Positions 1 to 37,944 of a stretch of DNA of 64,000 nt are shown here, one piece after another. Source of the DNA: Adineta ricciae (lineage: Eukaryota; Rotifera; Eurotatoria; Adinetida; Adinetidae). The notes beneath the pieces are model-generated. The model had not been told where the DNA came from, searched no databases, and saw only the letters and a list, made by a program, of their open reading frames with translations. Made by a program: the position numbers and the translations under genes. The stretch covers positions 1 through 64,000 of the forward strand of contig CAJNOJ010000102.1 in NCBI GenBank assembly GCA_905250025.1, written 5' to 3'. Position 1 is the first letter of the stretch. Each line of letters begins with the position of its first letter.

Positions 1-3000
1 AACTTCATCTTTTACATACCTCGGCAATGAAGAATGAATATCGATCGAGAACAAGTTGTTGTTCAATCTTTTCTTTTGATTCGATAGCATAGCGGATAAT
101 TTTCGCCATATTTTCGATACTCTCCGTTTCTTGTTTATATTTTTCGCCAAGCCATTCGTACATACGTGTGTATGTCTCATCAGCTTTACTTTTCAATCCA
201 ACAACCGCTCGAGTAGCAATATCCCGAATAAGTATCAAACGTTCTTGACAAATTCGTACTACACAAAAATCAAACTACATTCACTTGCTGTTCGAAATCG
301 AAAAACTTACCTTCATGTGCAATAGCAGCTAGATATTCCTCTTTTATTTTCGCTTTTAATTGTTGTTTCACTAACTGTTCAGGAGTCAATACTACAACTT
401 CTGAAATAGCACGAAGAATGAAAAAACATCGATTGAAACAAATGACCATAAGAATTATTGTCATACGTACGTTCGACAGGAGCTTCTTCTGTCTTCTTCC
501 CCTTTTTACCACTCTTTCCTGCAGAACCTTTTCCACCTTTAGCATCTTTACCGCCCTTCGCGTCTTTGCCTCCTTTAGCATCTTTACCACCGGGAGCAGC
601 AGCCGCCGCCGCTGCAGTGGCCGCGGCTGTCGGATCGATATCAATACTCGCTTGTTCACTGGTTTGCTAGAATCGAAACAAACGCCCGTTTTTACAGAGC
701 AATCTGAAAAGCAACAAAACGCTCACCATTTCATTAACATATTGATTAGCTAAACGATGTGCATCAAAGATCAACCGTTCATCCATATCTTCCGGTGGTG
801 CAGGCGAAGGTTCACCAGCATTGGCTTCTTCTAATTTCTTTTTCGCTGCAGCAGCTTGATTTGGACGTTTCTTTGGTTCGGGTGGTTCAAACGCTGTTAG
901 AGGTCGTCGCGGTACCAGAGGTAATCTGGAAATAATTATCATGGAATTTGATACTATTTATTCTATGTCTTTGCGTTTACTTTGGTTTGAGGCTTTTCGA
1001 AGAAGGATCTTGTTGAGATGCTTGTACAGTTGATTCCACCGTCTGCTGCGGTTCTTTTTCCTTTTTACCTGCTCCTTTCTTTCCACCTTTGGGTGACTTT
1101 GGTGGTGAAGGTGTTCGTTTACTATTCTTACTGGCTGATGCAGTTCGTTTGCCTTTTTTCGGCGTATCAGCTTGAGATCCGGCATCATCAGCATTTCCAC
1201 CAGGTGAAGCAGGTGTCTTTGTTGCATCGTAATCAACAAGGCTTTCTGCGACTGACGGTGGTCGTTGTTCTGCATCCATCAGCTCAAACAAAGGTAATCG
1301 AGCATATTCTTGTTTCATTTCGTCAGGTATTGGTTGTTGCATCGATTTATAATAATCGCGAAGCATGCGTAGAGCATCCTGATATCGATCGATTTCACTC
1401 TATGCAAACATTACGAACGTTTTTCTGATTCTCATCAAGAAAAAATATGTGTTGCTTACCTGCATCAATGTGATATAATGATTTGTAAGTAGACCAAGAT
1501 GATCAACAACCCATCCATCGTTTATGATACCATCACGTTCTTTTTCTGCTTCATCTTTGCGTTGTGTAGCAATGTCGTGCAGTGTATCGCTCAAATCTTC
1601 CACTCGTTGATGAAGTTCTTGTTTGAATTCATCATCATCACGAGCGTCTTCTGGTAAAGCGTTGAATTCCTACAAGATAACAAAAGAATATTGTCTTTTT
1701 TCTTGCTGAAAATACAGCCGAAACGATTACTTTAACAAACACGTCGACATATTCTTGTTTCGTATCTGGTCGATTAAGAAATACTTTAAAGTTCGCTTTC
1801 ACATCGTAGAAGTGATCGATCAAGTAGGAACGTTCGAAACGAATATTTCGAAAGACAATTTTACAAGAATCGACATAATTTATTTCCACAGCACCATAAT
1901 AATTTGACAGAATAGCAGCAATTTCCTAAAAACAGAACACTCTTATCAAATCTCATCGATGACGACTAATCTTACAGGATCAATCGGTTCCTGAACATAG
2001 ATCCATTCTTCAGTGCCAGGTTTTGGCGGAGGTGGACCTTGTGGTACAGGTGGTGGTGCTTCCACAACTGGTGGTGGCTCTTCTCCTGAAATCACGGAAG
2101 TATACAAGAATTGTTGTCTGAACTAATCGAGTTTACCTTTTTTGCCTTTTCCACCTTTCTTTGCACTAGCTGCAGGCGATTGAGCCTTCTTGGCACCCTT
2201 TTTACCTTTCTTGGCTGCTTCTAAAAAGATGATTAACAAATTACAATTAGTTCTGTATAGGAACAAAAACTAGAGCGAAACTGGAACTGAAAATGCAAAA
2301 GGGCAAGTGACTAATCACTTCGAGTCGATTTGCGTTGTTTACGATACTTGATTTTCTTTTTTCTACTCTTTCTTTTCGAATTCAAATCAGAATTGTCTAA
2401 AAGCCGTGTATTGCGTTGAAACTATCCAGAATAAAACCTACCGGCTTCAGCAGCTTCACGAGCAGCACGTTCCGCAGCAGCAGCGGCCGCCTGAAAGAAG
2501 ACAATCACGATATGGATAATAGATTAGTACGACATACGGCTTCTGCAGCTTGTTCTGCTTTGATCGCTTCTTCTTCTTCTGCCTTTCGTTTCGCTTCGAG
2601 TTCATCTTGTTCGCGAATTAAACGTTCTTCCTCCGCACGTCGTGTAGCTTCTTCTGCTTTTCTGACTTTCTCTTGCTCTTCATCTATATGGTTTTCGATT
2701 GCTCGAGTGAATTCATGGTACAGTTGTTCTTCATCCAATGGTGGATCGACTTTTGTTTCGTCAACAACAGCAACTTTCGAGTATTGTGAATAGAATTTCT
2801 CTATTCGAGGATACGATTCTTGAAATTGTGTTATACGATGTTGCAATTGTTCCATATCATTAGCAGCATCTTTTGTCGGGAACACCTGCTCTTGCCCATT
2901 GAATCCAGTTGCTGAACCACCCGGTGGTGGATTGTACTGTTCATGATATTCTTGATTCGCCAATGGTGCAACTAAAATACCGAAAGAGAGATGAAATGAT

Positions 3001-8534: not shown

Positions 8535-9447
8535 ATGTCAAGTATTCGCTCTTTGACCATTGCTGTTTGTCTCGCTTTTATTTACGTAAAAGCTACCTAT
8601 GGTGCGGAGTGTTGGTCCAAAAATGCTTGTATAGACACGAGTGTGTGCGCATCGAAAGGTGGAAGTTCTCAACGCGGTCTTTGCAGTGGTGCTAGCAACA
8701 TTCAATGTTGTTCATGGTAAGCAAAATGATTATTATTATTCACTTCGAAGATTGATACTCTTCGCTTTCAGCTCAAATTGTATGGATGCAACTACTTGTA
8801 AAGCCCGAGGAGGTGTATCTCATACTGGCATTTGTTCCGGTGCAGCAAATATGCAATGTTGCAAAATGGGATCTGTTGTAGAACCTGTTAGTGGTACTAC
8901 ACCAACAAACCGAATGTTAACCGACTTAGCTGATATCCTTCGTGGAGCTGGTCTTACTGTTGTTGAAGTCGATGGTTGGAAAACACGTGGTCATGGAATA
9001 ATGGCTTCAGCTAAAGGCATTTTGATTCATCATACAGCTGGTCCAGCTTCAGGTGATTTTCCTTCGTTAAGAGTTGTTCGCGATGGACGAACAGATCTTC
9101 CCGGTCCACTTTCCCAACTTGGCTTAGGCCGTACTGGAACATGGTATGTCATCGCTGCCGGTCGTTCGTATCATGCTGGTGAAACAATTGACAATTCCAT
9201 ATTTGGCAATTCCAATGCAATTGGTATCGAAGCTGAAGCGACAGGTGTTCCATCAACGAATACTGGACATGCTCACTGGCCAGATGTGCAATACCAAAGT
9301 TATATTCGTGGTGTTAAAGCTCTTCAAGCTGCCTATGCTATTCCAACTTCGCGTGTACTAGGTCACAAGGAAGCTGCCGTACCTGCTGGACGCAAGCCAG
9401 ATCCAAACTTTTCTATGGATGAATTTCGTGCTGCTCTCAACCAATAA
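8535..9447 (+). CDS. Secreted bacterial-type N-acetylmuramoyl-L-alanine amidase with two Cys-rich repeats
   Basis: Predicted zinc amidase cleaving the lactyl-Ala bond of peptidoglycan, secreted. Exons 8535-8716 and 8772-9447 give 285 residues. Residues 1-23 are a signal peptide. Two copies of a Cys-rich repeat follow (about 24-61 and 62-92), each with the pattern C..sGG....GlCsGa.n.QCC. The single 55-bp intron falls between the copies. The catalytic Amidase_2 domain occupies roughly residues 105-285. It has the first zinc His in ILIHHTAGPASGD, a conserved SYHAG, and the C-terminal motif GHKEAAVPAGRKPDPNF that supplies the second His, the catalytic Lys and an Asp ligand. Animal PGRPs use a Cys in that last position, whereas Asp and GRKxDP are typical of AmpD-like, actinobacterial and phage amidases, so horizontal origin is inferred. 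Intron, TATA box and AATAAA (about 9500) show a eukaryotic gene. A paralogue lies at 18872. Confidence 0.88.
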
Positions 9448-9705: not shown

Positions 9706-10747
9706 TTAAGCTAAATGAAAAAAATATCTTGACAATATGAATAAGTTCTCGATCCAACGAACCTGAAACGCAAGCACTTTTATCAATTGTATACATTTGA
9801 ATACGGTTGTTGTTTGTATCGGCAACATACAAATTACCGTCACGATCAAATGCAACATCACGTGGAAAATATAACTGAGCAGGACTGCTACCATATCCTG
9901 GTCCACCAATGATTACCTTACCAGCTTGAGCATTGTCTAACCAACGAACAACTCGTGTGTTGATGTACTCAACTACATAGACACTGCCCATTCCATCGAC
10001 GGTGACACCCATTGGTTTGTATAATTGATCGTCAGCATTTCCGAATCCTTTACTGGCAATTGCAAGTTGACCTTCTTGTGCACCGGCTAACCATTTCATA
10101 ATACGATTGTTGCCTCGATCGACAATGAAAAGTGTTCGACTTGCATCAACAAAGATATTATAAGGTGATGAAAGTTGATTCAATCCGTTGCCACGACCAT
10201 TGCCACCAGCAACAATAAGATTATCCGGCCATTTCATGACAAGATTTGCTTCTAAATCAGAGACGTACAGTGATCCTTGATTGTCAAGTGCCAAACCCCA
10301 GCATGAGATATCCTTCAGAATAGTTTCACCTTGTTTCTCATCTTTTCGATATTTCAACACCCGTTTATTGTCTCGATCGCAAACATAAACATTTTCATCA
10401 CGATCAACAACAACTTTGGTCAGTTGGCCTAATGGTTTACCATCGACCTGGTCATTTCCATTGACAATAACTTCGCCATTACTGGCACCCGATGACCATT
10501 TCATGACTCGATGATTATTTGTGTCAGCAATGTAAATACCACGATCATCAACGAACAATCCGTTTGGATAATACAGTTGATTCAATCCCGATCCAAGTCC
10601 GAGTCCTCCAGCGACAGTGATACCATTTCGATTCCATGTTGCACCTTGACAAACACTATCAATAGGAGTAGGAAGAGGAGATACTGCTTGATGGAGTGAA
10701 AAGCATGAGAGTAAAGAGAGAATTAAATGATATTGTATGCATACCAT
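9706..10747 (-). CDS. Secreted NHL-repeat beta-propeller protein
   Basis: About 329 residues; start taken at MVCIQYHLILSLLSCFSLHQ, a good signal peptide (an upstream in-frame ATG at 10768 would add seven residues). Six NHL-type blades follow, recognised by repeats such as GLFVDDRGIYIADTNNHRV, ..YVCDRDNKRVLKY and NLYVADTNNNRIQMY, so a beta-propeller is expected. NHL propellers bind proteins, RNA or ligands; no catalytic residues are evident. Exon 1 is 9763-10747. A 52-bp GT-AG intron (9711-9762) would place the stop at 9706. Without splicing the frame stays open to 9683 and adds a hydrophobic tail, which looks like translated intron. The gene converges on amidase 1 with about 260 bp between stop codons. 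Substrate and role are unknown. Confidence 0.82.
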
Positions 10748-12111
10748 TTTGGAAAATGTAACGTGCACTGAAGATTCTGTAATCTTTTAAATATGAGAAT
10801 ACAACGTGGGCGAGAAAAATCGAGGTGAGACGAAAGCAACGAAATGAATATGCGCGTACATTTCTTTAATCTTAAATGGTACTAGGTGCTTTGTGGAGAG
10901 AAATAGGCGATTCTATTTCACATGGTTATCGGCAAGATTCGATATGTCGAGGGTAGATTTCAAAGCGCTTAAAACCGATCGACTCAGTAAATATTATTAC
11001 AATATTATCAGGCCATATCATTAAAAAAAAAGATACTCTGCGATGATTTTTCAATAGAAGAAATGCTATTGTTTCCATACCAAACAGACGAATGAAAAGT
11101 ACATCGATTGAAAACTATAATCAGGGCATGTGATAAGGTCATATGTAATACCTTTCAACGATGAAAGCACCATTCGTTGCTTACTAAGTATAATTGATTT
11201 GATTTTGAGAGTTACGAACGATATAATGAAGTTTAGTTGGAAAGTGAAAAGACGAAAAATCGATTTTGTTCGCTTTTACCGTAAATGTCTGAATGAGAAC
11301 TGGCTTCGTTTTGTTATGTCATACCAGAATTTATGTTTTATGATAATTCAAATCGGTTTTCATCAGAGACGATAAATGCTACAGTTATCAGAACATGTTT
11401 TGATAGATTATTTGTCTTTGGTTGATGACGATCGAAACTTAAAAAAACATCAATATGCGAACTAAAATCCCTCTGTTGATATGTGTTCTGTAAATACATA
11501 TAAATTATATCCAAACATAATTCATTTGACAAAATACATAAAGAAGGGCAAAGAGAAAACAACTTCTCTCTGGTTGAGTGCATTTTTCTGATGCAATGAA
11601 GCTCATGCATCCACTCAGCTCATTTCTTAAGAACATACAAATGCCTATAGCTATAATCCTTAGTCAATGCAATTGAGAACAAATGGCCGAAAGAAAAGAA
11701 AAAAATGTACTTATACGCATGAATACATGGCTGATGCAATACCTAGAAAAAAAACCCTTTTTCTTATATTCAACGTCAAGAAGTGCATCGTTCGAGAGTG
11801 TATATATAAACGATACAGACGAACAAGCACACATTATTTCTCATACAAGTGCTGTTGGTCATCGGCAGCGTCTCGTATTCAAGCGTCGTTCGTTGTATTT
11901 GTTATACTCATATTTATATTAAATTCAACATCGAAGAAACAAACTCGTTTGGGTCCACCGATTTTATTACACATTCGTGTTCAATACTATTCTCCTACTT
12001 ACTTCGTCCTATCTGAGTAAGATCGTTTTGTATAAAGAAATCTCTGATCATTCGTTGTCATTTTATGTGTAGATTTATGTATTACTGGAGTTTTCTAAGT
12101 AACTCGTTTTC
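10748..12111. other. Intergenic, divergent upstream region
   Basis: 1.36 kb between two divergently oriented genes. Several short reading frames lack initiation context, splice structure or any recognisable domain. A strong TATA-like run at 11801 is the only clear signal. The rest is AT-rich and unassigned. Confidence 0.5.
11801..11810 (+). promoter_or_regulatory. TATA-like element upstream of P-type ATPase
   Basis: TATATATAAA about 300 bases upstream of the ATPase ATG at 12112. It could be the core promoter with a long or spliced 5' leader. The distance makes the link tentative. Confidence 0.35.
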
Positions 12112-18366: not shown

Positions 18367-18871
18367 TCTCAGAATTTGAGTGTAATATACATGAACTAGA
18401 ACTTGATTTTGCTGTTTTTGTGAAAAATATGATTCTATATAAACAAAATGGAAGAACGAGAGACTACAAAAAAGTTCGGTGCGTCATTCAGCTATTATTC
18501 TTGTGTTCGACTGAATCGACCGAGAAAATTACTTCGTGATGTGTAGTTTTTTTTATCACGTGGTTATGACACTTTTAGAAAATGCACTGTCTCGTTTATA
18601 GGCTGCCTATTTTTCAGAACTAAGATTAGGTATTTTCTATCGTATTTGATAAATTTTCAAATTAAAAGAGTATTGAGGATTAATATTTTAATACCCTTTT
18701 GTCCTCGTTTTCTGCCTAATGGGTTATTTCTTCGTCTTTACTGATGTATATAAGGCGCCATCAGCCAAAGGCTTTCAGTATATTTTAGGAAACAGTGTAA
18801 GTAACTGCTAAATTGTCAAATATTCTTTATCTAAATGGTTTTTTTTCTTCGATAGTCTATCAATTGTAACC
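18367..18871. other. Intergenic plus 5' UTR intron of second amidase
   Basis: 3' flank of the dehydrogenase, then the amidase promoter (TATATAAG about 18747) and a probable 59-bp 5' UTR intron (18797-18855, GTAAGT...ATAG) just before the ATG. Confidence 0.5.
18747..18754 (+). promoter_or_regulatory. TATA box of second muramoyl amidase
   Basis: TATATAAG about 50 bases upstream of a probable 5' UTR intron (18797-18855) and 118 bases before the ATG. Confidence 0.5.
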
Positions 18872-19510
18872 ATGCTCGCTACCAACGTATTCTCGATTTT
18901 AGTTTGTTTTTTTCTGGCCCATGCCACTTATGCTTTTCATGGAAATATTTCCATGGCGGATGATGGTATTCAACCACGAGTTATGCTTACGAACTTAGCC
19001 ACTATTCTTCGAAATGCTGGCCTCGATGTCACAGAAGTTTCTGGCTGGGCAACACGTGGTCATGGCCAAATGACTGCCGTTAAAAGTATCATTTGTCATC
19101 ACACTGCTGGTCCAGCAACCGGTGATATGCCTTCATTAAATGTCATTCGTGATGGTACTTCAAGTCTTGCTGGCCCACTAGCACAATTGGGATTAGGTCG
19201 TAGTGGTAAATGGTTTGTTGTTGCTGCTGGTCTTTCCTATCATGCTGGCGTTGTTACTAATTCAGCTTTGTATTCGAATGCTAATGCTATTGGCATCGAA
19301 GCTGAAGGTACAGGTCTTCCGGCTACCAATAGCGGACATACATACTGGCCTGAAGTTCAGTATCAAAGTTATTTGAAAGGTGTTCGTGCTCTTATGAAAG
19401 CTTTTAATGTACCAAAGGCTAATGTTCTTGGACACAAAGAAGTTGCCTCACCATTAGGTCGTAAGATTGATCCAAACTTTTCTATGGATGAATTTCGTAA
19501 TGCTCTTTAA
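18872..19510 (+). CDS. Secreted bacterial-type N-acetylmuramoyl-L-alanine amidase (paralogue 2)
   Basis: Intronless coding region of 212 residues. Residues 1-21 form a signal peptide ending near HATYA. The Amidase_2 catalytic domain covers nearly all the rest: zinc His in IICHHTAGPATGDMPS, SYHAG, IGIEAEGTGLP and the terminal GHKEVASPLGRKIDPNF with the second His, catalytic Lys and Asp ligand. It is collinear with the catalytic domain of the gene at 8535, sharing long blocks such as HTAGPA.GD.PSL.V.RDG, but lacks the two Cys-rich repeats. Predicted to cleave bacterial peptidoglycan outside the cell or in the gut. The Asp ligand and GRKxDP point to bacterial or phage ancestry rather than animal PGRP. 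TATA box, 5' UTR intron and AATAAA (about 19569) indicate a functioning eukaryotic gene. Confidence 0.88.
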   Translation: MLATNVFSILVCFFLAHATYAFHGNISMADDGIQPRVMLTNLATILRNAGLDVTEVSGWATRGHGQMTAVKSIICHHTAGPATGDMPSLNVIRDGTSSLAGPLAQLGLGRSGKWFVVAAGLSYHAGVVTNSALYSNANAIGIEAEGTGLPATNSGHTYWPEVQYQSYLKGVRALMKAFNVPKANVLGHKEVASPLGRKIDPNFSMDEFRNAL

Positions 19511-19871: not shown

Positions 19872-21178
19872 TCAACTAATATTAACATAGGCTTCCTGTT
19901 TTACGTCTCCATCGGTATACAACCAGAAACTTAGAGTGTAGATATGTCCGATTGTAACATTAAAATATTGATGTAAATAATCATAATTTCCTTGACATGC
20001 CCCTTCGTAACAGTTGGAACTATTGTGACAATTAGTTTGAACGAGACTGCTTTGTTTGCCAGAAAGACAACTTTGACTACTACATGCTATTTGCCAACCA
20101 ACTAATGAAGCTGCTTCAAAATTTCCGTTGAGTAACATTTCAATACCGGATGCATTTATATCAATAACACTAACATCATCGAGATGCCAAGTAAAGGATG
20201 GATTCTTAGCCTTGAAACCAAACTCAAGAAGAACAATTCCAGTAGATATCGCTGTGTAGTTGTACATTTGCCTTTGATAAGTAGTCGGTGATGTTGTATA
20301 TGTAGCAATACGTGCAGATGATGGCATACATGAAACATCTATGAAAAAATGTCAAAACTAAAGATTTTCCTGTTGTACTCACTCATAGTTGTAAATGGCA
20401 TTGTCGTCGTAGTATATGATAGCGTCGTATCTAGCTAAATAAAGTTTCTTTGCTGCTGAATCTCTCGTTATTACTTACTAGTAGGATATGCCTGAGTAAA
20501 GATGATTACTGTGTTCCTTTTACTTATAACAGTTAGCTGTAACCTTCCCTCCCATCTTGCTGCTGAGAAAAGTGAACATTTTTGCAAAACACCGTCATAA
20601 TTTGCAAGAGAACAAGTTGAATTAGGCATGCACCAATACCAAAACTAGTTTTGAAATTTTGGTATTGAAGTCTTGGTTTTGATGTGGTTTTGATTTCAGT
20701 ACTTTAGTATTGATTGGGTTTTGGTTTTGATCGCTTAGTTTCGGTTTTGGGTTTTGGATTTGAAAGTCTTGAAAGTTTTGATTTTAGTTTTGGTTTTGGT
20801 TGTTAAAAACAGTCTTATTAGATTTATCTTGAAAGACGAGCAACAGTATTGAAATCATATCAAGACCAAAACCATGTCAAAACCAATACCAAAACTGCCA
20901 AAACTTTATCAAAACCTATACTGCAAAACCCAAACTAAATCAAAACCAAATCTTCAAAACCCAAGAGGTTTGGTATTGGTGCATGTCTAAGTTGAATACG
21001 TATTGCATTGACAAGCGCATGCATCGATCGACGGTACACTAGGAACGATCGTCAATTGCGAAGTGGAATTGCTTGGATAAAACTGTGCATTGTCAATTCT
21101 ACTTATACGTATAGATTGTGTATACTGATGATGATAGCAGATCAAAAGTAGAAGGATTCTCCAAAACATTGTCAACAT
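19872..21178 (-). pseudogene. Secreted PAN-like/Thr-linker/lectin-like protein gene, exon broken by MITE
   Basis: The host gene reads as exons 20990-21178 plus 20479-20614 (one exon split by the insertion), then 20383-20430 and 19872-20338. With the element and one copy of its target duplication left out, the frame is continuous for 279 codons. Architecture: signal peptide (MLTMFWRILLLLICYHHQYT), a Cys-patterned PAN/apple-like domain (about 45-85), a Thr-rich linker and a C-terminal domain of the NGNFE...GW type found in carbohydrate-binding modules, with several N-glycosylation sites. As assembled, translation enters the element and meets TAG straight after the target duplication, truncating the product at 63 residues. 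Downstream exons and splice sites show no further damage, so the insertion may be recent or present on only one haplotype. Exact function unknown. Confidence 0.72.
20623..20989. mobile_element. 367-bp hAT-type MITE with 8-bp target site duplication
   Basis: The ends are inverted repeats starting TAGGCATGCACCAATACC on the left and, on the other strand, TAGACATGCACCAATACC on the right. The flanks are a perfect 8-bp duplication AGTTGAAT at 20615-20622 and 20990-20997. The interior is an imperfect long palindrome: the left half is rich in GGTTTTG and the right half in CAAAACC. There is no transposase frame, so it is non-autonomous. An 8-bp duplication with ends beginning TAG fits the hAT superfamily. 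It sits inside a coding exon of the PAN-like gene. Confidence 0.88.
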
Positions 21179-31194: not shown

Positions 31195-31233
31195 NNNNNN
31201 NNNNNNNNNNNNNNNNNNNNNNNNNNNNNNNNN
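31195..31233. other. Assembly gap (run of N)
   Basis: Thirty-nine undetermined bases; true gap length unknown. It falls directly upstream of the first visible exon of the G-alpha gene. Confidence 1.
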
Positions 31234-34575: not shown

Positions 34576-36056
34576 ACAAATATTACATATTCGAAATCCA
34601 TATTACTTATGGGATAACCTCGTTGGAAAAAAATACTTTCATTGGATTCGATTTTAGAAGTTTCATTATTTCAAAACCCTTGAATACAATGATAACTTTT
34701 TAAGATGATACTGTTAAAAAAAAGATTAGTTTATAGTATGACGTTGTTTCCTAAGAACATTTTTTCAATTCTCTCGCACACAAAACAAACACAACTCGAA
34801 GCTTTTAACAAACGAATGTATCGAACTACGATAGGTTGGCACGATGCAACAAACGTTGAAATATCAAACACACAGAATTACAGGTCTATTCGGTCGCTCG
34901 CCGGGCATCACTTCAGCAATCTACTAGACTTTTTTCACTCTCTTCCTAAGTTCAATTTTGATGTAATCAAGGCCAACATTTAAATAAATAGATAATGATC
35001 AACTATACACGAAATAAGAACATTCTTACATTGCCTGATTCAATGTTCCATAAAGCTCAAACGACCGATAGTAGCAAAAAAAAGCGGTACTCAGGATATC
35101 ACAATACAAACCTACATCTTTTGTTAACTTTTCAACAGGTTAATATTCGATATAATCATGTTAGTACTTCTCTGAACGATGAGAAAACAATTTAAAATCT
35201 TGAACGAAAAACAGCTGTTTATCTTGCATCTAACACTTCTGCTCTCTCTTATAGATATAACAAAAAAAAGACACACTTTATCAGATTTGTATAATATAGA
35301 GCATTGACATTCGTGCTTGATAGATTTTCCATTGGTACAATGGGATTCTCTCACTGCCATACGTGGAATCGATGAGATTTTGACCAATTCGTTCAATTTT
35401 GCTTGAAGTCTTTTATTGCGAGCCTATATAAATTTCTCAATACACTTCTTAATTTCAAGTTGGTTTCGTACTCTATTATTGATAAAGCTGATTAATTGTA
35501 TTTCACTGGACAAGTATCAAAGTTATATGACAATGTATTTCAATACAATCTATTGCACCATGTACATCAAATTTTATGGTGAAATATCTAACAAAGAAGT
35601 CAGTGACAGAATAAATCTTTCTTTTCTTTCGTTCATCAAAAAAGAATCAGAAATCTCTTTTGTTTCTCTGATAGACATCATTCATATGATGGGATTCGCC
35701 TACGTCTGCACACGATGTGAGCAATGACATACTTAGGAGTTGTTGCCTCAAGAGATTGACCTGTCCATATCGATGACATATCTCATCTTATCCTAAGAGA
35801 ATCATTCACACACAAGTAATTTCTTTTTCATTTTTAACCGCTATTGCCTGTAGCTCATCATCATCATCATTCCCATTTGACATCGTCCAGCTGGTTCGTC
35901 CGTAATCTAATCGAACACTTCTCATTGGTTAATTACCGAAAAAACGTATATTTCTCTTTTCGTTTGGATAAAAAAAAGGAAGAAAAATCAAATTAAAAAA
36001 CAACATGATTATATCCAATATTTGCCAATCATTGAACACGTTCAATAAACATACTC

Positions 36057-36160
36057 GTTTCTTTCTAGTTCTATCAAAGAAGACATCTTTTCTGTTCTTC
36101 AGTTCAATTTGTTAGTATGTATTTTATTCCCTGGTGCGTTTTAAACATATGTTCAGATTG
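36057..36160. repeat. Diverged dispersed repeat, copy 2
   Basis: Second copy of the element at 34473, same strand, about 1.6 kb away, with several substitutions and small length differences. Confidence 0.5.
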
Positions 36161-37944
36161 TTAAACATATGCATAAAAAAAAAAGATTAGATGGTCTATT
36201 TCGTCTAGTTCACATACACACACACACTTCACAACTTGTATGTGTACAGAAGGTAGGATATGAATGTCAATGAAAAGATCGTCTTACATGACACTGCAGG
36301 TGTTCATATACTTTCTCGCAACAGACATTGTTTCAAATAAGCAATGACCTCTTTTATTTGTCTGTATAGTTGTGTGTAGGTTGACCTTCTCCCAAAGAGA
36401 ATGAGGCTAATTCCATATAATAAAGAAAGAAAGATGAGAGGAAAAATTGTTCTGTTTCTTTCCTTCCTTCTTTCTTTTTTTTTTTATCACTATACTTGAC
36501 AAATATTGGATCAGAGAAATCGATTGAACCAAGTAAGACAAAAGAATATACCATCTTCTTTTTATCTATTGAACCTTTTGATTTGAATGAACATTATAGA
36601 TAGATATATGTCTATGTTCCCCTATTCATTGAGGAAACACTATCATATACAAATGTTATGTATCATTGTATGCGCCAGCTTCTTCTTGTTTTGCATAATC
36701 ATTAGTAATAACAAAAGTTCAATGGAGCGAAAATGATATTTGAATAATGACTAGTATTCAAAGAATGATTTAGTGTCATCTTGACAATTCGAGTGAGTTT
36801 ATATCGATGATTTCGTTTGTATTAATTTATGTCGTCGGAATGAATAGACGATTCTTCAATCGTTATTATGTCTCAATTTCTTCTGCTTACATCATGTGGA
36901 GAATTCATAAGTTTTTACCACTAATATATCGAACAACTTTTGTGCATGTCTGTGGAGAGTTTTTTTTTCTTATTTACAAATCAATTGACTATATCTGCGT
37001 CGTAGATTAAAATCTTTACGTCTTAGTATTTGCGTGTATGATCATCTTAGGTGAACAGATAAGACCGAATAAGAGCTTCTTCTCTTCTTCGTTCTTGTTT
37101 ATTCAGTTAAAATAGTGATATAAGGTGTGAAGATGAGTTCATTGTATTTAATTAGATAGTTGCATAATGATAAGTTTCATTTCTCTTTCGATAGGAATAT
37201 AACTACGGACATTACTTTCCAGTATGTGGATCGAATAGCAAATAGGATTAGATTGATGTGCTATTCACTATCGTGTATCAGCTTAGCACAAGACGATTGT
37301 TTATTCGAATTGAAAGCATATCTAGGTTTTTTTTTCTTCTTTTTGATATTCGTTTGAATTGCCCTTGGCTTATTTTGATCTTGTCCTAATGAAAGGGTTG
37401 TCACATGTCATTAGTTGTTAATTGAAGGATGCACATTAATACTCATATGATGATAAACGATTGTTCAATTGTATAAGTGAATAGAAAAAGAATGACCTTG
37501 AGGGTATAACATTTTTTGAGTGTTTAAAATGACAATTCTTGTCGTTTTTCTTATTCGATTCAATTGAGATAAATCAATCATGAGTTATCATTGATTCTTA
37601 CTTCTCGGTTTTACATAATACATTCATCGTACGATGGAATATCAACTTGCACATGTGTTGACAAGGAATTTTCATCGATATGAACTTGTGTATGCATTGA
37701 TAACGGTTAGTGTTTAGATCATTCAATCGGTTTTCTTTTCTCGTTATTGTATATACGTAACTAGAAGAGAAGGAGGAAAATATTCTTTCGTATTGAATGT
37801 TAGCAGAAGAAACAAAATCGCATCTGCTTATCGGAAAGAATAAAGTATAAACGTTTAGTTTAATCTAAGACATAACCAAGGACAATATCTATTCTTTCTT
37901 CATTTTTTCATCCGCTATAATAAATAAACCTTTTCTCTTTTTCC

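Follow-up and report, generated by a model that had tools for sequence, protein, structure and literature searches.

What interrupts the first exon of a predicted gene in the stretch of Adineta ricciae DNA analysed here (contig C102, 64,000 nucleotides, hereafter the window), how did it get there, and what has become of the gene? An initial annotation, prepared from the letters alone, had proposed a recent insertion of a hAT-type MITE into a coding exon, perhaps on one haplotype. Our analysis assigns a probability of roughly 93% to the explanation that a MITE-like hAT element inserted into one of two homologous gene copies after these had diverged, and that the outcome was probably a null allele. 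The evidence comes from the element and its target duplication, an empty site on a collinear contig, related copies in the same assembly, and longer relatives that carry transposase sequence.

The inserted element

The element, its ends and the flanking duplications are arranged as follows.

20615..20622, no strand: left 8-bp target-site duplication, AGTTGAAT
20623..20989, no strand: non-autonomous foldback element of hAT type (MITE-like), 367 bp
20623..20646, plus strand: left terminal inverted repeat, begins TAGGCATGCACCAATACC
20966..20989, minus strand: right terminal inverted repeat, begins TAGACATGCACCAATACC when read on the minus strand
20990..20997, no strand: right 8-bp target-site duplication, AGTTGAAT

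The coordinates of the 367-bp foldback element and both perfect copies of the duplication, as initially annotated, were verified. The two duplications match at all eight bases, an agreement that chance alone would produce at a given position with a calculated probability of about 1.5e-5 (assuming equal base use). The arms (20622–20646 and 20966–20990) are 25 nt long and 92% complementary; their outer T-A pair is part of the duplications, and without it they measure 24 nt. Folding of the element yielded z-scores of −9.2 as RNA and −10.4 as DNA, and in both cases none of the 100 shuffled sequences was as stable. By eye, much of the element consists of CCAAAAC/GGTATTG-like repeats, and positions 20623–20989 overlap no stop-to-stop frame that reaches 90 aa.

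Repeat sequence misjoined into the exon during assembly is an extremely improbable source of this arrangement: the window and the contig with the empty site (C239, see below) do both come from one draft assembly, but a misjoin is not expected to yield a perfect 8-bp duplication together with complete inverted ends, and the only run of N in the window lies elsewhere, at 31195–31233.

The ends of hAT elements follow the rule YARNG, and those of the window element, TAGRC, agree with it at four of the five places, the fifth base departing. The hallmarks of the superfamily given in the part of PMC3942097 available to us, an 8-bp target-site duplication and short terminal inverted repeats of 10–25 bp, are both present in the window element. 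The same source describes MITEs as short sequences without coding capacity that have inverted ends, lie in or near genes and reach high copy numbers; here the element is 367 bp long, folds back, contains no frame of at least 90 aa and sits inside an exon. We use the label 'MITE-like' in view of the copy counts, which are lower bounds: 17 places by BLAST and about eight independent insertions among the ten copies examined.

The interrupted gene

The host gene lies on the minus strand and is divided by the element as listed below.

20990..21178, minus strand: host exon 1, 5' part, from the ATG at 21178, codons 1–63
20987..20989, minus strand: TAG, codon 64, the first of eight in-frame stops of the interrupted exon
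20479..20622, minus strand: host exon 1, 3' part, the second target copy followed by the Cys64 codon
20339..20478, minus strand: predicted intron, 140 nt, GTAAGT...CATAG, equal in length in the C239 copy
19872..20338, minus strand: predicted host exon 2, open up to its stop

Exon 1 runs from 21178 to 20479, is ended by the predicted donor GTAAGT at 20478 and measures 700 nt with the element. The continuous host frame that had been claimed was recovered when the element and one duplication were left out, giving an open, in-frame exon of 325 nt and a predicted protein of 263 aa, the same length as in the C239 copy; both parts of the interrupted gene are still open. The 5' part of the exon has a start resembling a signal peptide (by eye) and contains about half of a match to the PAN domain. 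In the C239 protein the PAN_1 match covers residues 42–85 (E 2.5e-6, over the cut-off). The exon-2 part of related proteins shows weak similarity to the carbohydrate-binding domain CBM_4_9, over the cut-off in P0001 and below it in P0002; this domain was not found for the C239 protein.

The element was inserted between codons 63 and 64, directly before a cysteine (residue 64) that is invariant in the eight aligned sequences. Thirty related proteins were matched, the named ones being from Adineta and Rotaria and none of them bearing the name A. ricciae; eight of them were fetched and seven aligned (P0005, which is without the first-exon part, was left out), and all seven, some of them near-duplicates (P0001/P0002 and P0003/P0004, for example), are uninterrupted at the insertion site. 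Together with the intact copy on C239, this bears out the view that a coding exon was hit.

The addition of 367 + 8 = 375 nt equals 125 × 3, so that, as had been pointed out, the length is a multiple of three and the frame is broken by internal stops, eight in number, within the added sequence. Codon 64 becomes a stop because the element has TAG at its end and the last base of the target completed a codon, and the earlier reading of TAG as the first codon after the duplication was correct for the minus-strand exon. The frame ends near the middle of the PAN match and leaves out the whole of exon 2, which makes the window copy very probably a null allele, with loss of the protein to be expected from its sequence.

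The insertion would be tolerated if the spliceosome removed the element, the transposon serving as a new intron. Within exon 1, 36 GT-AG pairs (introns of at least 40 nt) would indeed keep the frame open, but the product would be 18 to 234 nt shorter and the donors of these pairs appear weak by eye, which leaves such splicing very unlikely. Precise GT-AG splicing of the element within exon 1 was rejected, as none of the 36 pairs removes exactly 375 nt. There is also a slender chance that transcription of the interrupted allele continues and that the element hairpin in the transcript is cut into small RNAs; were that so, the host promoter would drive the production of silencing RNA directed at the whole hAT family with the same repeats.

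The empty site on a collinear contig

Searching the assembly itself (130 Mb, 1033 contigs) with the protein sequence of the host exon returned 33 matches: the two halves of the window copy, 30 matches at 29–36% identity, and one intact exon, C239:21175-21495, 85% identical over 107/107 residues. The latter contig carries a single target, ATTCAACT, without the element, and its matching exon is open over all 107 query residues. The site reads ...GCGTATTCAACTTGTTCTC..., with one target and no footprint.

The two contigs correspond well beyond the gene. C239:42049-5913 is collinear with window positions 1–35252 in six main BLAST blocks at 92.0–95.0% identity, and the two gene copies differ by a Ks of 0.148 and a Ka of 0.063 (NG86). 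For A. ricciae, the portion of PMC5916493 at hand reports a mean Ks of 0.14 between homologues and of 1.27 between ohnologues, a median homologue divergence of 4.55% and a GC content of 35.6%; the GC content of the window is 31–40% in 2-kb steps. The Ks of the two copies fits the published divergence of homologues. Divergence and collinearity suggest that C102 and C239 may represent the two haplotypes of one clone. Taken with the empty site, they place the insertion on one homologue and after the two copies had separated. The suspicion that only one haplotype was affected is thereby supported. Both an empty site and related copies (see below), whose absence had been named as evidence against the proposal, exist in the assembly.

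How recent the event was is less clear-cut. The flanks, initially taken as a sign of youth, are perfect but a weak guide to the date of the event: with a divergence of about 7%, duplications of this length would remain identical in roughly one case out of two (0.93^8 = 0.56). The real bound on the age of the insertion is the empty site on C239, so 'recent' holds in the sense of postdating the separation of the two copies, and is not backed by a near-identical parent copy. Dating from the element's own arms was rejected, since arms need not be identical at birth. Of the 34 residues that differ between the two copies, four are derived in the window copy, eight in the C239 copy and 22 cannot be assigned; these small numbers are in agreement with a late loss of the window copy.

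Alternatively, an old element might once have been present on both homologues and been lost from C239 by precise excision or gene conversion. Excision is how hAT elements move, an insertion of this family common to two contigs exists (C67/C245, see below), and a study of recombination in Adineta vaga, as far as its available text goes, indicates that the histories of homologues may mix (PMC7749112). However, C239 has one clean target and no footprint, the seven aligned relatives are likewise uninterrupted at the site, and the window copy does not show excess decay. Loss of an old element from C239 is therefore hardly credible.

Under the preferred explanation, insertion on one homologue, the non-autonomous element would have been mobilised by transposase from a related hAT element with a BED finger, although which transposase acted can only be surmised from the relatives described below. 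The element would have been pasted into exon 1 of the gene for a PAN-domain protein on one of the two homologous copies, after these had diverged, duplicating the 8-bp target. The copy on C239 stays open and may mask the loss.

Related copies of the element

BLAST searches with the element retrieved 35 aligned pieces, distributed over 17 places of the assembly; these include the window's own element and folded-back arms, and the copy counts are lower bounds. The end pattern (with up to three mismatches) was found at 136 places, versus 17 for a reversed control pattern. Ten copies with both ends, picked by similarity and not by their duplications, were examined. Their duplications match at 8/8 positions in five copies, at 7/8 in two, and at 6/8, 5/8 and 2/8 in one each. 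The ten copies correspond to about eight independent insertions, as the C67 and C245 copies derive from one event and so do two copies on C280, which have common flanks and a common duplication and were counted as one insertion, itself duplicated. Five of the approximately eight insertions have a duplication of 7/8 or better. The search for other copies with 8-bp duplications, which had been recommended, was thus successful.

The insertion common to C67 and C245, whose flanks match at 91.8% and 91.5%, is older than the split of these contigs because both of them carry it. Among the copies in the assembly no near-identical parent of the window element was found; the removal of the donor by cut-and-paste transposition would explain this. 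The closest full-length relative, the C327 copy (C327:105089-105420), is 86% identical by BLAST and 95% over aligned columns when gaps are ignored, and partial pieces of other copies are up to 91–94% identical. The C327 copy is situated inside another repeat family (C139, C238), and paralogous copies of this surrounding repeat provide a second empty site. The composite of repeat and element is absent from C243, where its two flanks meet (87–91% identity; 40 of 636 candidates scored in the search for a C327 homologue). No collinear homologue was found for the C161 copy among the 40 of 71 candidates scored, or for the C648 copy among all 18. Nesting was also observed on C245, where the copy at C245:22530-23098 holds pieces of the repeat family that surrounds the C327 copy.

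Longer relatives with transposase domains

The hAT dimerisation domain has at least 144 matches in the genome (150 of 181 candidates scored). Two longer elements, pieces of which were read separately and not joined, are related to the window element. The first, C375:337-5324, is 4988 bp long, which is within the 2.5–5 kb given for full-length hAT elements in the consulted portion of PMC3942097, and is flanked by an exact 8-bp duplication, TATTTGAT. It contains zf-BED (4.6e-11) and hAT dimerisation (PF05699; 6.0e-12) domains, both over the cut-off, and provides the full-length relative with a hAT transposase. Its ends, TAGGYATGTCGCAATACC, are related to those of the window element without being identical (four and three mismatches to the 20-nt pattern), and its subterminal repeats are related as well. 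The open frames of this element (L066) are broken by stops or introns.

The second, C121:2737-7796, is 5060 bp long, and its ends are closer to the window element than those on C375, the terminal 74 bp being 88% identical. Its transposase is degraded: the hAT dimerisation match exceeds the Pfam cut-off only if read through a stop (27.8 bits), and the open pieces stay below it (18.3 vs 21.4 for hAT dimerisation, 16.9 vs 20.6 for BED). Its duplication is poor (AATACCTC / AGTACCCT, 5/8). The RNase H-like DDE catalytic core of a hAT transposase would lie in frames that are interrupted; one 344-aa transposase piece compared with solved structures gave two weak matches only (E 0.27 and 0.88). Poor duplications in three of the ten copies and in the C121 element, its degraded domains, the departing fifth base of the ends and the lack of a near-identical parent count against the explanation as a whole.

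Duplications of 8 bp are not unique to hAT elements and are also made by the P and Merlin superfamilies, to either of which a foldback element of this kind could belong. Such an origin is very improbable here, as BED and hAT dimerisation domains occur in the longer elements, whose ends and subterminal repeats are related to those of the window element; these domains, and the 8-bp duplications at other copies, endorse the hAT label given initially. By analogy with Hermes (see below), the CCAAAAC/GGTATTG repeats may be binding sites for BED fingers; this would account for the mobility of an element of such small size.

Comparison with known insertions

The closest precedent seen comes from Rotaria magnacalcarata RM9/RM15, where an LTR retrotransposon has entered a midasin-like gene (Nowell et al. 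2021, PMC7943196). According to the accessible text, that case also concerns a bdelloid in which a recent insertion in coding sequence creates a premature stop, and another scaffold carries a partial copy that is intact and empty, so that the insertion is possibly hemizygous, as here. The Rotaria element is, however, an 8.1-kb LTR retroelement and not a 367-bp DNA element, and its insertion was shown across individuals, whereas the present empty site was found within one assembly, on a contig collinear with the window. Mar MITEs, derivatives of hAT-Buster in Drosophila, resemble the window element in being short and non-coding, with inverted ends, 8-bp duplications and a hAT origin; their ends, CAG(G/A)GGTAGGC, and target, nnnTAnnn, as described in the portion of PMC3517528 consulted, differ from those of the window element, which has other ends, a target without central TA, and consists largely of CCAAAAC/GGTATTG-like repeats. 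In Hermes-type hAT elements, BED fingers bind subterminal repeats (PMC10368747, available in part). The longer relatives of the window element similarly combine a BED finger with a hAT transposase, and repeated motifs lie beside the ends; unlike in Hermes, any binding of these fingers to the family's repeats is conjectural. The literature searched, which was of limited coverage and partly accessible, did not describe this hAT family from bdelloids.

Events of this kind are already known, and the present example is an ordinary, well-supported one that leaves the understanding of such events unchanged. Its value lies in a clean and relatively dated movement of a DNA transposon in a bdelloid after homologous copies had diverged, and in one gene that occurs naturally in both an intact and an interrupted version. 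The case sets a hAT element beside the LTR elements already published as evidence for ongoing transposition in bdelloids, which the intact homologue may mask.

Neighbourhood of the gene

Collinearity with C239 ends from window position 35253 onward: among the five candidates, all scored, none was a good homologue of 35253–37400, and C239:1-5912 has no block with the window. The end of collinearity would reflect either a homology break or a missing contig. Between the blocks flanking the run of 39 N in the window, C239 has about 1170 bp (9953–11125), and the gap therefore probably hides more than 1 kb. Window positions 1–121 are a short repeat with two matches on C239, one in the main block and one at 47180-47060 with 100% identity. 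A frame for an ATPase near the host gene is 93% identical over 96% to an A. ricciae protein. Finally, two N-acetylmuramoyl-alanine amidase (Amidase_2) genes are located on the plus strand at 8635–9447 and 18812–19510; their DNA is about 72% identical over 476 columns, and the second adjoins the PAN gene.
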